From the IMG/VR virus record IMGVR_UViG_3300008217_000022, positions 1 through 36,315 of that record: a DNA stretch of 36,315 nucleotides; one strand, given 5' to 3'. The notes under the pieces are model-generated. The model worked only from the letters and a program-made list of their open reading frames with translations, ran no database searches and was not told the origin of the DNA. Position numbers and translations under genes: made by a program. The stretch comes from a virus. This document shows, piece by piece, positions 2,336 to 27,125 of the stretch (position 1 is the first letter of the stretch; the number at the start of each line of letters is the position of its first letter).

Positions 2336-2785
2336 ATGAAAGATTTTAAATTTACACCAGTAGAATCCCAAGTTATAGATGTTTTCTGGTCACAGTTGGC
2401 TCCTCTCTTTCAACAAATTATTGATAGAGAGGGAATGGGCAGGGAAACACTAGACTCTTTGAAAGAGAAAATTAAAGGAGGATATTTACAGGTATGGATA
2501 GGATGGGAGGATTCTGTTAATGATATCGTTGCTACATATTGCACACAAATTATTGAATATCCAACGAAACGTCAGTGCCAATGGGGCTATATGGCGGCAA
2601 AGAATAATGACATGGTTAAGTGGGAAGAAGCAATGATAGCTTCTTTAGTACACTATACCATAGAAACTAAGTGTGATGGTATAGAATTTTTTAGTTCAAG
2701 AAAGGGATGGAAAAAGATATTTGCAAAATATAAAATAAATATAGAGCCAATTGGAACTCTCTACGAGACAAAGATTAATGTATAG
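2336..2785 (+). CDS. GNAT-like (acetyltransferase-fold) phage protein
   Basis: This 149-residue protein resembles the small GNAT-fold proteins often seen in phages. It has an N-terminal helix pair with QLAPLFQQIIDREG, a strand LQVWIGWEDS, a central strand IVATYCTQIIEYP, and a C-terminal CDGIEFFSSRKGWKKIFAKY segment matching the IEI-x-GR-x-GW-x-R-x-L pattern of that family. The usual acetyl-CoA loop (R/Q-x-x-G-x-G/A) is not clearly conserved, so the activity and substrate are unknown. The ATG lies 7 bases after the -10 box of a good promoter and has no visible Shine-Dalgarno sequence, so it may be read from a leaderless transcript. Its end overlaps the next gene by eight bases. Confidence 0.6.
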   Translation: MKDFKFTPVESQVIDVFWSQLAPLFQQIIDREGMGRETLDSLKEKIKGGYLQVWIGWEDSVNDIVATYCTQIIEYPTKRQCQWGYMAAKNNDMVKWEEAMIASLVHYTIETKCDGIEFFSSRKGWKKIFAKYKINIEPIGTLYETKINV

Positions 2786-3566
2786 TCTCCCTACTATTTA
2801 TGTTGGATATGATAGAAGAGATGGAGAAGCATATAAAGTATTAGTAGAATCTATCTTAGATAGAACATCTCACCCAGTTAATATTATTCCTATATACCAA
2901 GAAGAAATGCGTAGGATAGGATTCTACAGAAGAACACATAGAATAGGCAAAGACTTAGTATCTATTGATACACTAGATAAAAAGCCTTTCTCAACTGCGT
3001 TTAGTTTTACCCGCTTCTTAGTTCCCTTTTTAAACAGACATCAAGGACAGGCTTTATTTATGGATTGTGATATGTTGGTAAGATCAGATATCATGGAAGT
3101 ATTTGATTATGGTCTAGCTAATGATAAAGCAATCTGGTGTGTCCAACATAATCATTCCCCAACAGATAAATTTAAAATGGACAACATGATTCAGTCCCAA
3201 TACTCCAGAAAGAACTGGTCTAGTTTTGTGTTGTGGAATTGTGAGCATGAAGCTCATAAATATTTCACAATAGATGATGTTAATCTACGCACAGGCTGGT
3301 ATCTTCACAATTTTAAATGGATTCCAGATAACGAAATAGGATCTCTACCAGAAGAATGGAACTGGTTAGACAATCACTCATCCCCTAATATTGAACCAAA
3401 GAATGTACACTTTACAACTGGTGGTCCTTGGTTTGATAGCTGGACTGTCAAAACAGTAGACGATGGTAAGTATGCCTTAGAATGGAATTATATTTATACA
3501 GCTATAACTGTTGAAGAATCTTTAGGAAAGGAAAAAAATATTAAATGGAAAAAAGAATTAACATAG
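2778..3566 (+). CDS. Glycosyltransferase, GT8-like with DxD motif
   Basis: The protein opens with PTIYVGYDRRDGEAYKVLVESI, the first strand and helix of a GT-A nucleotide-sugar-binding fold. It carries D96-C97-D98 in ALFMDCDML, the metal-binding DxD motif. A GWYLHNFKW / FTTGGPWFD region toward the end resembles acceptor-side segments of GT8-type enzymes. The expected role is transfer of a sugar from a nucleotide donor to a glycan or protein; donor and acceptor are unknown. I chose ATG 2778 (262 residues) over a TTG at 2751, because the ATG gives an eight-base overlap with the previous gene and starts directly at the fold. Its 3' end overlaps the next, related gene by 22 bases. Confidence 0.75.
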   Translation: MYSLPTIYVGYDRRDGEAYKVLVESILDRTSHPVNIIPIYQEEMRRIGFYRRTHRIGKDLVSIDTLDKKPFSTAFSFTRFLVPFLNRHQGQALFMDCDMLVRSDIMEVFDYGLANDKAIWCVQHNHSPTDKFKMDNMIQSQYSRKNWSSFVLWNCEHEAHKYFTIDDVNLRTGWYLHNFKWIPDNEIGSLPEEWNWLDNHSSPNIEPKNVHFTTGGPWFDSWTVKTVDDGKYALEWNYIYTAITVEESLGKEKNIKWKKELT

Positions 3567-5839
3567 TAACTTCTTTTTCTAAGACAGGATGGGAAACCTA
3601 TGGAAGAAAGATGGTACAAAGTGCTGCCCAATTTTGGGGACCAAATATTCACCTCACAGCATTCTATCATGACTTTGAATTAACTGATCCAATAAGTAAC
3701 CCACAAATTTCTTACAGGAATTTAAATGAAGTCAAAGATATGAAGGAATTTAAAAAGGAATATGCTAAATATGACGGTACTTTAGGAGGAAAATCTCCCT
3801 ATACTTATAAGCTTGATTGTATAAAGTTCTGTCATAAAGTCTTTGCACTAACAGAATTTGCTTTTGAATTGTGTGAACAGAGTAAGAAACCAGGATGGCT
3901 TATCTGGCTAGATGCAGATACCATTACCACAAAGGTTGTAACTTATGATACACTTAATAAATGTCTACCAGAAAAAGCTTCTCTGGTTTATCTAGGTAGA
4001 AAGCATTATGAGTATAGCGAGACATCTTTTTTAGGTTTTAATCTTGACCATCAAGCTCCTGTAGATTTGTTAGGGGACTTACGAGGAGCATATATTTCTG
4101 GAGAAGTTTTAAATTACAGAGAATGGCATGATGGGTTTGTCTTTGAAAGATTATTAAAAATTTATATAGCTCATGGATTAAAAGCCCATGACTGGACAGG
4201 ACACATAGACGAGATCAAGAGTCTTCATTCTGGTGTCCAAGCTTTTGAAAGCTTTCCTTTAGGAGAATATATGATCCATAACAAAGGATCAAGAAAGAAA
4301 CCAGGAGGGGGAGTGTCTCCAGATGTGAACGGGCCAGAAAGATATAAACAATTGATGCAGTTAATTCTTCATTACAAACCTAAATCCATTATTGAAACAG
4401 GAACATGGAACGGTGGAAGAGCTATACAAATGGCTATAGCAGCCTTTCAGAATACAGACAAGGTAACATATACAGGCTATGATTTATTTGAAGAAGCCAC
4501 AAAAGAAACAGACACAAGAGAATTAAATACAAAAGCTCATAATTCTTTAGAGGCAGTTAATAATAGGCTTCAAGAATTTGCAGATAAGATCAAAGAGAAA
4601 GGTAAAATATTTAAATTTACATTACATAAAGGAGACACAAAGAAAACCCTGTCAAAATCCAGAGCAGATTTTTCTTTCATAGATGGTGGTCATTCAAAAG
4701 ATACAGTCAATCATGATTTTAAGATGCTTAAAAAATCTCCTGTGGTTGTTTTAGATGACTACATTATGGAAGATCCTGCAGGAAAGGGACCACCAAAAAA
4801 GTTTTATGGTGTAAATAAAATTATTAAAAAACAAAATCGTTCTGTAATTCTTCCATCTAAAGATCAAATAAGAGATGGTGGAAGGACACATCTGGCTGTG
4901 GTCTTAACAAATAAAAATGTGTCAGATGTCCCAGTAGATATTCAATCTGTTCCAATTGTGGTACAACCAAAGGATTGTGTTCCCAAAGAATACATAGAAA
5001 ATAATGTGAAAGCTAATACAAAGATAATTAAAAAATGGATTAAAAGATCTAAACCAAACAATGAAGTTGCCATTTTTGTTTCTGGAGGAACTGTTGATTG
5101 GGAGGAATTAAAAGGTCTTATAAGACATGAAGGAGAAGAAAGGTGTAGGATTGTCTGCGTGAAACATTCCTATCCTAAGTTATTGGCAGAGGGGATAAAG
5201 CCTTGGGCTTGTATCATTCTTGATCCCCGCCCAGTTGAGGGTACAAGTACTCATGGAATTGTAAGAAAAGACTTATTTAAAACTGTAGATAAAGATACCT
5301 TATTCCTTACTGCATCTATGACTGATCCTTCAGTAACCAATCTTATTAAATCTAAAACGGATAACATTATTGGATGGCATGCTTTTTCAGAAGCATTAAG
5401 AGATACAAAGGCAGAGGAACAACAGAAGTCTATTATTGTAAAAGAAGAATTAGGTATAGAAGCAGGAGCCACAATGATTGTTGGAGGAACCTGTGCAGCT
5501 ATGAGAAGTATAGGCATTATGCACACACTAGGTTTCAGAACTTTCCATTTGTTTGGGTATGACTGCTCTATGCCTGAACCAAATGAGGAAGAGAAACAAA
5601 CAATAGAAAATGAAAAGCCTAAATATATTCAAGTAGGAATAAAAGTAAATGGAGAAAACCGTCCCTTCTGGACTACAGGAGAGCTTCTTGCAATGGCACA
5701 AGACTGTGAGAAATTATTTGATAGAGAAGATGTAGACATGAATTTAAATTTCCACGGGACAGGAACTTTAGTTTCTGCTATTTGGGAAAACTCTACAACT
5801 AAAAACTTAAAACATTACAGAGAAATATTAGAACTATAG
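3545..5839 (+). CDS. Glycosyltransferase / SAM methyltransferase / DUF115 three-domain fusion
   Basis: Three domains can be read. Residues 1-250 form a GT-A-like unit with D123-A124-D125 in WLIWLDADT. Residues about 262-455 look like a class I SAM methyltransferase of the Methyltransf_24 type: SIIETGTWNGGRA (281-293) as the SAM loop, GYDLFEEA after strand 2, FSFIDGGHS (377-384), and VVLDDY (401-406). Residues about 500-745 resemble DUF115/MptE-like proteins, including the family of flagellin-glycosylation glycosyltransferases, with VAIFVSGG (508-515), CIILDPRP, and GGTCAAMRSIGIMHTLGF (647-664) followed by HLFGYDCS. Separate genes for such activities are usual; one polypeptide suggests stepwise building and methylation of a glycan. 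The target could be host surface polysaccharide or phage structures. Domain calls are from motif reading without a profile search. Confidence 0.72.
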   Translation: MEKRINIVTSFSKTGWETYGRKMVQSAAQFWGPNIHLTAFYHDFELTDPISNPQISYRNLNEVKDMKEFKKEYAKYDGTLGGKSPYTYKLDCIKFCHKVFALTEFAFELCEQSKKPGWLIWLDADTITTKVVTYDTLNKCLPEKASLVYLGRKHYEYSETSFLGFNLDHQAPVDLLGDLRGAYISGEVLNYREWHDGFVFERLLKIYIAHGLKAHDWTGHIDEIKSLHSGVQAFESFPLGEYMIHNKGSRKKPGGGVSPDVNGPERYKQLMQLILHYKPKSIIETGTWNGGRAIQMAIAAFQNTDKVTYTGYDLFEEATKETDTRELNTKAHNSLEAVNNRLQEFADKIKEKGKIFKFTLHKGDTKKTLSKSRADFSFIDGGHSKDTVNHDFKMLKKSPVVVLDDYIMEDPAGKGPPKKFYGVNKIIKKQNRSVILPSKDQIRDGGRTHLAVVLTNKNVSDVPVDIQSVPIVVQPKDCVPKEYIENNVKANTKIIKKWIKRSKPNNEVAIFVSGGTVDWEELKGLIRHEGEERCRIVCVKHSYPKLLAEGIKPWACIILDPRPVEGTSTHGIVRKDLFKTVDKDTLFLTASMTDPSVTNLIKSKTDNIIGWHAFSEALRDTKAEEQQKSIIVKEELGIEAGATMIVGGTCAAMRSIGIMHTLGFRTFHLFGYDCSMPEPNEEEKQTIENEKPKYIQVGIKVNGENRPFWTTGELLAMAQDCEKLFDREDVDMNLNFHGTGTLVSAIWENSTTKNLKHYREILEL

Positions 5840-24743: not shown

Positions 24744-27125
24744 TTATTTTCCATATATAGGAGGCAATCTTCCGCCCCCGCCAATGTCTGCCATTGCTAA
24801 ATATACATAAGTTGCTGAACTTGTATTTGTTCCAGAATCTGTATTTCTAATTTTAAAACCTTCAGCAAGAATATCTATTTCCTCTGATCCAGTTGTTTCT
24901 ACTGTTGTAGCTTCAGCTAGTAACTGATCATCTACTTCATTACTAGAAGATCTAACAGTATCATACATAAACCAACTACCTGTAGAACTTGATATCTTGA
25001 TTAAGATAAATCTAGGTTTAAATCCTGTACAAATCAAAGGACCATCAGCATTTCCATTTCCTGTATATGATCCAACAGCACATACACCAGCAATTGATCT
25101 AAAACAATATGCTATATATTTTTCTGTATTCGCATTAACTTGATGATTAGTCCCTATACTAAAAACAGAACTAGTAGGAGCAGTATCATTCCACATTGTA
25201 GAATCATCAGAAATAGCAGCAGTAGTATTTAATACTAGATAATCTGTTTCTGCATCACTAGCAACTCCTGAATGATAAACTGCCCAGGCATCTCCTTGAT
25301 CTCTATTTTTCACAATTATCATTTCTGCAGCACCACCAAGACCATGCCCTGTTGTAGTGGCAGAACCAGTCCCTGTATAAGAAACTGTTGAAAAATGTTT
25401 TGCGCTGGCAACAATAGAAGTACTAGCCAAATCTCCAGCAGGGGATGTAGTACTTCCTGCTCCACTAGCGGCACCCCAGTTCCAAGAAACATAATCTTCT
25501 GTGTTTGTATTAACTGCTACATTGCTTCCTACTGTAAATCCATCAGAACCAAAAGTAGTTAAAGATTCAGTATCTGTTGCTTCTGCATCTACTGTATCAC
25601 TCTCTATATATTTAGTAGTTGTTCTAACTCTATCAAAAAGCATATGACTATCTGTAGCATCTCTATTTTTAATCCATACAAATCCTGGCTCAAATCCTGC
25701 ACCTGTAACAGCCTTTCCTCCAGATCCTATTGCTGTCCCATTTCCTGTATAAAGAACTGGATTAAAGAAGTCTATACCCTGATTACTTGGGGCAGTAAAA
25801 TTAGCTGTACTAATTTCTTTAGCTCCTGTTGGAGTGGAATGTGTCCAATCAGAGGAGTCTATTGCTAAAGTAAGAGTTGTTCCATTTGCTCTAACACAAA
25901 TAGATATAAGATCAGAACTAAAAGTATTAGAAATAGTTCCAAGTGACACTCCAGAATTATTATAAAATCTTACTTCATTATCAGCTAAATCTAATTCACA
26001 TCCAATTGTGTTTCCTGAAGAAAATCCTGATCCATAAGAACTTTCTGTACCATCAACAATTTTATTATTATCATCAGTATATAATACACAATCTGAAGCA
26101 GAAGTAATATCGCTTCCATTAATATTACTATCTAAACCTACAAATCCAACAGCCCATTCTGACGAACCACTATCTTCAGCAATGGTTGCTTCAAAATACC
26201 AAACTCCTCCAGCAGCGTTATTTATAGAGAGTGTACCTATAGTAAATTTTGTACTTCCAGAAAAAATTAAATTACCTTGTGTTAAAGTTCCTACACTTGG
26301 AACAAGTTGGTTTAATATAACATATTCTTTAGAAGGTGTATTAGTAGACTGATTAGCAGAAGATATACTTGTTAAACCAAAGTTATTACTATTATCACTT
26401 TCATCTTCTCCTAAATTAGAAGAATCATCAAAGGAAAGCATAAAACTATTAGCTCCTCCTGTATTAACTAGTGTTGTAATATCTGCATCTGATTTAGGTA
26501 CATATTGAGAACCGTTAGTTCCAAAAGTAAAAGTATCCAGAAAATCTGTTACCGCAAAATCTCCTTGCTGAATAGACTTAGTACCAATCATAGATGCTTG
26601 AGCAACAGAACCTCTCCACAAACCATTTTCTACACTACTTCCAACCTCATGAAGTGTATTAGTATTAAACTGATAAGTATGATCTTGAGGAGGATAAGTT
26701 CCAGTTAATGTTGCTGCCACTCCATTTATGTAAAGATCTACTCTATCTGCAGGAGTGCTTTGAGATGTATCTACACTCAATAAGAAATGATACCAAGCAT
26801 TATCTCTCCATACAGCAGTAGTATTTAAAATTTGTGATCCTGTTTTTGTCTGAAAATAAATCTTATCATCTGAATCAAGTCTTATACTTGAATAAGCTGA
26901 AGAATCCCCAGAACAAAGAAATGCGTGTCCTCTACTAATTTCATTAGCTTGAATCCACATAGAAAGTGTAAACTCTGATCCATCTCCTGCATCAGACATT
27001 GTTTTAGTTACTTTATCACTTGTCCCGTCCATCCAAATTGAATTAGGTATAAGAGTACTATCAAAAGTGGGGGCAGTCTCTTGACCACCTGCTCCTAAAA
27101 GAAGATTATTACTAAATACACTCAT
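24744..27125 (-). CDS. Large adhesin: LamG-like, SPRY-like and DUF7483-like domains (793 aa)
   Basis: Three beta-sandwich blocks can be distinguished. Residues about 30-200 look LamG/concanavalin-like (SEFTLSMWIQANEISRG, NAWYHFLLSVDTSQS, VDLYINGVAA). Residues about 290-420 look SPRY-like (GGVWYFEATIAED, WAVGFVG, NTIGCELDLADNEVRFYNNSGVSLG). The C-terminal 350 residues carry two tandem modules with paired motifs (GFEPGFVWIKNRDATDSHMLFD / GFKPRFILIKISSSTGSWFMYD; EDYVSWNWG / EKYIAYCFR) matching the DUF7483-type repeats of marine phage tail proteins. The combination is typical of carbohydrate- or surface-binding tail proteins. It starts with a TAATG overlap after the fiber gene. Binding to host glycans is inferred. 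Confidence 0.72.
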   Translation of the reverse strand: MSVFSNNLLLGAGGQETAPTFDSTLIPNSIWMDGTSDKVTKTMSDAGDGSEFTLSMWIQANEISRGHAFLCSGDSSAYSSIRLDSDDKIYFQTKTGSQILNTTAVWRDNAWYHFLLSVDTSQSTPADRVDLYINGVAATLTGTYPPQDHTYQFNTNTLHEVGSSVENGLWRGSVAQASMIGTKSIQQGDFAVTDFLDTFTFGTNGSQYVPKSDADITTLVNTGGANSFMLSFDDSSNLGEDESDNSNNFGLTSISSANQSTNTPSKEYVILNQLVPSVGTLTQGNLIFSGSTKFTIGTLSINNAAGGVWYFEATIAEDSGSSEWAVGFVGLDSNINGSDITSASDCVLYTDDNNKIVDGTESSYGSGFSSGNTIGCELDLADNEVRFYNNSGVSLGTISNTFSSDLISICVRANGTTLTLAIDSSDWTHSTPTGAKEISTANFTAPSNQGIDFFNPVLYTGNGTAIGSGGKAVTGAGFEPGFVWIKNRDATDSHMLFDRVRTTTKYIESDTVDAEATDTESLTTFGSDGFTVGSNVAVNTNTEDYVSWNWGAASGAGSTTSPAGDLASTSIVASAKHFSTVSYTGTGSATTTGHGLGGAAEMIIVKNRDQGDAWAVYHSGVASDAETDYLVLNTTAAISDDSTMWNDTAPTSSVFSIGTNHQVNANTEKYIAYCFRSIAGVCAVGSYTGNGNADGPLICTGFKPRFILIKISSSTGSWFMYDTVRSSSNEVDDQLLAEATTVETTGSEEIDILAEGFKIRNTDSGTNTSSATYVYLAMADIGGGGRLPPIYGK

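Follow-up and report, generated by a model that had tools for sequence, protein, structure and literature searches.

A predicted three-domain glycosyltransferase–methyltransferase fusion and its GT8-like neighbour form a conserved two-gene unit in marine phages

Genes and predicted folds at the locus

The window analyzed here is a 36,315-base virus record from IMG/VR. Its major capsid protein shares 52% identity with that of Roseobacter phage CRP-901 and 50% with that of Pelagibacter phage HTVC023P, while its ribonucleotide reductase is 74% identical to that of Roseobacter phage CRP-3; on such sequence similarity, the host is likely a marine alphaproteobacterium. The literature searched on such roseophage groups does not mention the gene of interest, which encodes a single long protein, hereafter the fusion, and overlaps an upstream GT8-like glycosyltransferase gene by 22 bases. 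The relevant features are as follows:

536–2212, ribonucleotide reductase gene, preceding both the GT8-like and the fusion genes
2778–3566, + strand, GT8-like glycosyltransferase gene (open reading frame from a TTG at 2751, with the ATG at 2778 the likelier start)
3524–3532, + strand, Shine-Dalgarno-like sequence AGGAAAGGA, 5' of the fusion start
3545–5839, + strand, fusion gene (ATG start, 764 amino acids, zero internal stops)
3545–4300, + strand, N-terminal GT-A domain, predicted GT6/GT8-like (residues 1–252; DAD at 123–125; Foldseek matches to GT6 structures)
4319–4939, + strand, middle SAM-dependent methyltransferase domain (residues ~259–465; Pfam and Foldseek)
4946–5836, + strand, C-terminal MptE-like or Maf-glycosyltransferase-like domain (residues 468–764; PF01973 and Foldseek)

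The initial annotation had read this protein as three usually separate domains joined in 764 residues. Profile searches recovered two of them: Pfam placed Methyltransf_24 (PF13578) at residues 283–406 (E 5.7e-8, 34 bits against a cut-off of 26.3) and the MptE-like family PF01973 at residues 486–677 (E 1.2e-9, 38.6 bits against a cut-off of 34.6), with no Pfam match in the N-terminal third (first ~250 residues). Against the PDB by sequence only, neither the glycosyltransferase (GT) nor the MptE-like domain gave anything significant, the Maf match of the C-terminal domain by sequence profile standing at E 1.6. Its best NCBIfam match was PseD (E 4.8e-6), at 25.5 bits and thus far under the cut-off of 670. 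No transmembrane stretch was found in the fusion protein (maximum 19-residue Kyte–Doolittle mean 1.21), and a search for defence-system membership returned none.

All three domains were recovered by structure prediction. An AlphaFold2 model of the 764-residue protein, built from an alignment of 31 relatives, reached a mean pLDDT of 85.7 and a pTM of 0.48; given this low pTM, the predicted arrangement of the domains relative to one another is uncertain, while the individual folds of the model can be considered reliable. Foldseek searches of the PDB matched the model to GT6 alpha-1,3-galactosyltransferases (5nr9, E 1.2e-7; 1g93, E 2e-7), to the Magnetospirillum Maf glycosyltransferase 5mu5 (E 2.1e-7), and to the O-methyltransferases 3r3h, 5zw4 (TrmR) and 5n5d (TomG) (E 5e-6 to 8e-6). 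Structure prediction had been named as a check on the middle SAM fold and the C-terminal fold, and both were found. The suggested kinship of the C-terminal domain with flagellin-glycosylation transferases is likewise supported by the 5mu5 match and the sub-threshold PseD hit. The model of L042, a natural variant without the methyltransferase (pLDDT 81), also matched GT6 and Maf structures by itself, with 5mu5 at E 9.3e-7. The N-terminal domain was predicted to adopt a GT-A fold and carries a DxD motif, as in GT6 enzymes, yet neither Pfam nor a domain-profile search of PDB sequences gave a GT6 match. Taken together, these models predict three folds in one chain, i.e., a GT6/GT8-like GT-A domain, an O-methyltransferase, and a Maf-glycosyltransferase-like domain.

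A conserved two-gene unit in ocean phages

Four IMG/VR scans, three of them using C-terminal domains and the fourth the GT8-like gene, supplied the relatives. A scan with the C-terminal domain identified 439 IMG/VR stretches encoding relatives of it. From the collected loci we obtained 250 complete ORFs with both GT and MptE-like domains, many of them repeat fetches of one contig, and clustering at 95% identity reduced these to 90 non-redundant ORFs, including that of the window. The search for the same domain order in metaviromes, which had also been proposed, was successful: the order GT–methyltransferase–MptE-like was seen in 84 of the 90 ORFs, with the methyltransferase absent from the other 6, and this recurrence indicates that the fusion is not an assembly artefact. 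In the loci examined, neither the GT nor the MptE-like domain was seen without the other in a complete ORF. The fusion is thus a widespread family in related ocean phages, shared beyond the phage of the window. A search of 50,697 phage records for relatives of the C-terminal domain was negative, even with E values up to 1 admitted, as was a pattern search of 84,980 species genomes that detects close relatives only. A full-length structural match does exist in UniProt (A0A6J7X5Q0, 714 amino acids, from an uncultured Caudovirales phage, 31% identity), so the architecture was already deposited; the entry is annotated merely as a "methyltransferase domain protein". No study of it appeared in the literature searched, and searches on phage MptE/DUF115 proteins gave nothing relevant.

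The C-terminal MptE/Maf-like domain is the conserved core: across the 90 relatives it has 66 columns conserved at ≥97%, whereas the GT domain has 22 and the methyltransferase 15. The GT-A assignment with a DAD motif had been made from the window alone (residues 123–125), and the corresponding DxD is kept in 82 of the 90 relatives. One of the eight exceptions (L245) carries N-x-N, which may be likened to the motif of metal-independent bacterial GT6 enzymes. One clade (L128, L188, L189, L191, L193, L194 and L198) has lost the DxD of the GT domain as well as the methyltransferase residues, with the MptE-like domain conserved. Recombination also occurs between the GT and MptE-like parts: L030 and L031 are 99% identical in the C-terminal domain and 76% in the GT domain.

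The GT8-like gene was found 5' of the fusion in all 90 relatives, at a distance of up to 60 bases in 80 of them and up to 700 in the rest. In the opposite direction, 76 loci were fetched with the GT8-like gene; 75 contain the fusion too, and the one exception is truncated by the contig end. Because this adjacency is universal, we consider the conserved unit to be two genes, the GT8-like gene and the fusion. The product of the former matched Pfam GT8 under the cut-off (E 0.0016) and PHROG 28018 at E 9e-49. The initial annotation had placed both this gene and a cupin alongside the fusion in a compact pathway for building and O-methylating a glycan: the GT8-like partner stands, and the cupin drops out, since it lies beyond the holin and just 6 loci out of the 90 contain its family.

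The surroundings of the unit are partly conserved as well, with the terminase small subunit 3' of the fusion in 81 of 90 relatives and ribonucleotide reductase 5' in 80 of 90. The latter varies in type (~558 amino acids at 80–93% identity versus ~640 at 24–29%), as if types had been swapped at one site. Around half of the relatives carry an Hsp20 small heat-shock gene upstream of the GT8-like gene (L235:4962–5366 and 42 other loci), and in one relative a ThyX thymidylate synthase gene (L044:4014–4652) sits between the two genes of the unit.

Variation of the internal methyltransferase

The methyltransferase of the window contains an ETGT motif I at residues 284–287, and D380, H383 and D404–D405 are its predicted metal or catalytic residues; these may correspond to the acidic metal-ligand and catalytic-base positions of COMT. 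By alignment, the four residues are present in the window and 48 other relatives (49 of 90) and altered in 35, while the whole domain is absent in 6. In the altered sets, position 380 is G, position 383 is N or D and positions 404–405 are DH, DN or DK, with one other type.

A Methyltransf_23 gene lies directly 3' of the fusion in 27 of the 35 altered relatives, but in no relative whose domain is intact (49) or deleted (6); for two altered relatives (L178 and L188), the available stretch ends before the region 3' of the fusion can be read. The start of this stand-alone gene typically overlaps the end of the fusion (L165:4254–4862 and 26 other loci), and it occurs only where the internal methyltransferase lacks its key residues. 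Extending the search to whole contigs, Methyltransf_23 was detected in 0 of 49 contigs with an intact domain versus 27 of 44 others. Other relatives carry a separate Methyltransf_24 gene, either elsewhere (the DK subgroup L040, L044, L060, L065 and L079) or downstream (the deleted variants L041 and L042); among the 49 contigs whose internal methyltransferase is intact, only one had a second Methyltransf_24 gene. Three relatives that have lost the internal domain (L031, L236 and L280) showed no replacement among the methyltransferase families tested. Overall, the internal methyltransferase can degenerate, be deleted or be replaced.

How far these counts are independent was evaluated on a tree built from the GT and MptE-like parts of the fusion relatives. 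The label functional or non-functional methyltransferase needs seven changes on this tree. As the link with Methyltransf_23 is in essence confined to a single clade, the counts reduce to about three independent replacements. An independent-pairs test of compensation gave p 0.5 and was underpowered, while a Fisher test (p 3e-15) ignores the kinship of the sequences and was therefore set aside and not counted as evidence. The pattern nevertheless suggests a genuine methylation step, one that a separate gene can provide in trans, a reading that is statistically unsecured.

Proposed function and comparison with known enzymes

Phage isolates carry some of these parts as separate neighbouring genes. 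In Pelagibacter phage Mosig, Mosig_00189 is a separate homologue of the GT-A domain of the fusion (profile match, probability 98.8), located between two FkbM methyltransferases and a GT8-like gene, with a sulfotransferase two genes on. Caulobacter phage CcrColossus encodes an MptE-like protein (E 1.5e-7, slightly under the cut-off) and a GT8-like gene, both placed between a tail gene and lysis genes. Both arrangements support a shared glycan task. Comparison of CcrColossus gp127 and gp128 with the GT-A domain was negative, and the two compared methyltransferases of Mosig and ct7QV12 showed no similarity to the internal one.

We consider it somewhat probable that the fusion is a cytoplasmic multi-activity glycan-modifying enzyme working with the upstream GT8-like gene, with a protein as the likeliest acceptor. 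The Maf-like domain would attach a host-made nucleotide-activated sugar to the acceptor, starting or capping a glycan, and by analogy with Maf the donor may be a CMP-activated nonulosonate or Kdo. Hexoses added by the GT-A and GT8-like enzymes would extend the glycan, and the middle domain would O-methylate one sugar, yielding a short O-methylated glycan; O-methylation of a glycan by the fusion can reasonably be inferred. A search of 40 contigs turned up no CTP-sugar synthetase, hence the donors are probably host-made; these contigs likewise yielded no tyrosine integrase, suggesting that phages carrying the fusion are probably lytic. From this probable lytic character and the late-gene neighbourhood, a weak argument, a virion protein is slightly favoured over the host surface as the acceptor. 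On the opposite strand of the window, at 24744–27125 (−), lies a large tail-associated protein whose Pelagibacter phage homologues are annotated with SPRY or lectin domains, a possible glycan-related virion protein. A more speculative scheme, and a rather unlikely one, is Maf-type protein O-glycosylation, whereby the fusion and its partner would move a host nonulosonate (e.g., Kdo) onto virion proteins, extend it and O-methylate it, the methylation being swapped between an internal and a separate enzyme across lineages.

Alternatively, the unit may remodel the host surface, i.e., lipopolysaccharide or capsule, and so block rival phages or the binding of progeny to debris. Sets of glycosyltransferases and O-methyltransferases commonly modify O-antigens, and Synechococcus phage S-SCSM2R has a GT8-like homologue near KdsB and KdsA. 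We nonetheless regard this as possible but doubtful: without an integrase in the 40 contigs, temperate-style, long-term serotype conversion is less likely; many O-antigen-modifying systems use membrane partners, whereas the fusion has no transmembrane stretch; and no flippase-like gene was present among the nearby genes scanned.

The Pfam name MptE-like and the upstream ribonucleotide reductase gene might suggest a nucleotide or pterin kinase acting in cofactor or nucleotide metabolism. The name, that of a 6-hydroxymethylpterin diphosphokinase, is inherited from Pfam, however, and the fold search favours Maf; the structural match is a Maf glycosyltransferase, the best NCBIfam match is PseD, and in 90 relatives the domain is always fused to GT-A and always beside the GT8-like gene, making a kinase quite improbable. 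Some phages glycosylate and further modify bases, and the ThyX gene between the two genes in L044 could be taken to hint at phage DNA with hypermodified, glycosylated bases as the substrate. This appears more improbable still, as ThyX is there in one relative only, the named genes of the window include no base hydroxymethylase or thymidylate synthase homologue, and a DNA glucosyltransferase is absent from the listed Foldseek matches.

With a glycan-modifying enzyme as the preferred reading, the unit represents an uncharacterised two-gene glycan module that many marine phages carry but that the annotated phage records searched lack, with a Maf-like enzyme as its probable core. Its natural variants, which have an intact, a degenerate or a deleted methyltransferase or a separate methyltransferase gene alongside, make the roles of the domains directly testable.

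Among known systems, the Mosig cluster resembles that of the window in that homologues of the GT-A and GT8-like enzymes adjoin methyltransferases, but differs in that these are separate genes with FkbM-type methyltransferases, and no MptE-like domain was found. Maf/PseD enzymes, as represented by Magnetospirillum Maf 5mu5, share with the C-terminal domain of the fusion its predicted fold and the motifs GIxP and GFRxxxLFGxD, although sequence similarity is remote. Maf enzymes move CMP-activated nonulosonates to Ser/Thr of flagellin, their PF01973 domain is similar to the sialyltransferase Cst-II, and one Maf transfers CMP-Neu5Ac and CMP-Kdo to protein, a clostridial Maf also using CMP-Kdo (PMC11339370). 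Unlike the fusion, Maf lacks GT-A and methyltransferase domains and carries N- and C-terminal domains of its own, and the fusion in turn has no flagellin link. GT6 (alpha-1,3-galactosyltransferase, blood-group A/B enzymes, BoGT6a) and GT8 (XXYLT1) enzymes have a GT-A fold with DxD, as predicted for the fusion, with ~10% identity to its GT domain and no GT6 sequence match. Finally, Mg-dependent O-methyltransferases (Methyltransf_24; TylF/CmcI, COMT-like, TomG and TrmR) share the SAM fold predicted for the middle domain and may share the D/H/DD pattern seen in the window, but the methyltransferase of the fusion differs from them in being embedded between two GT domains, and 41 of 90 relatives either lack it or have one that looks inactive.
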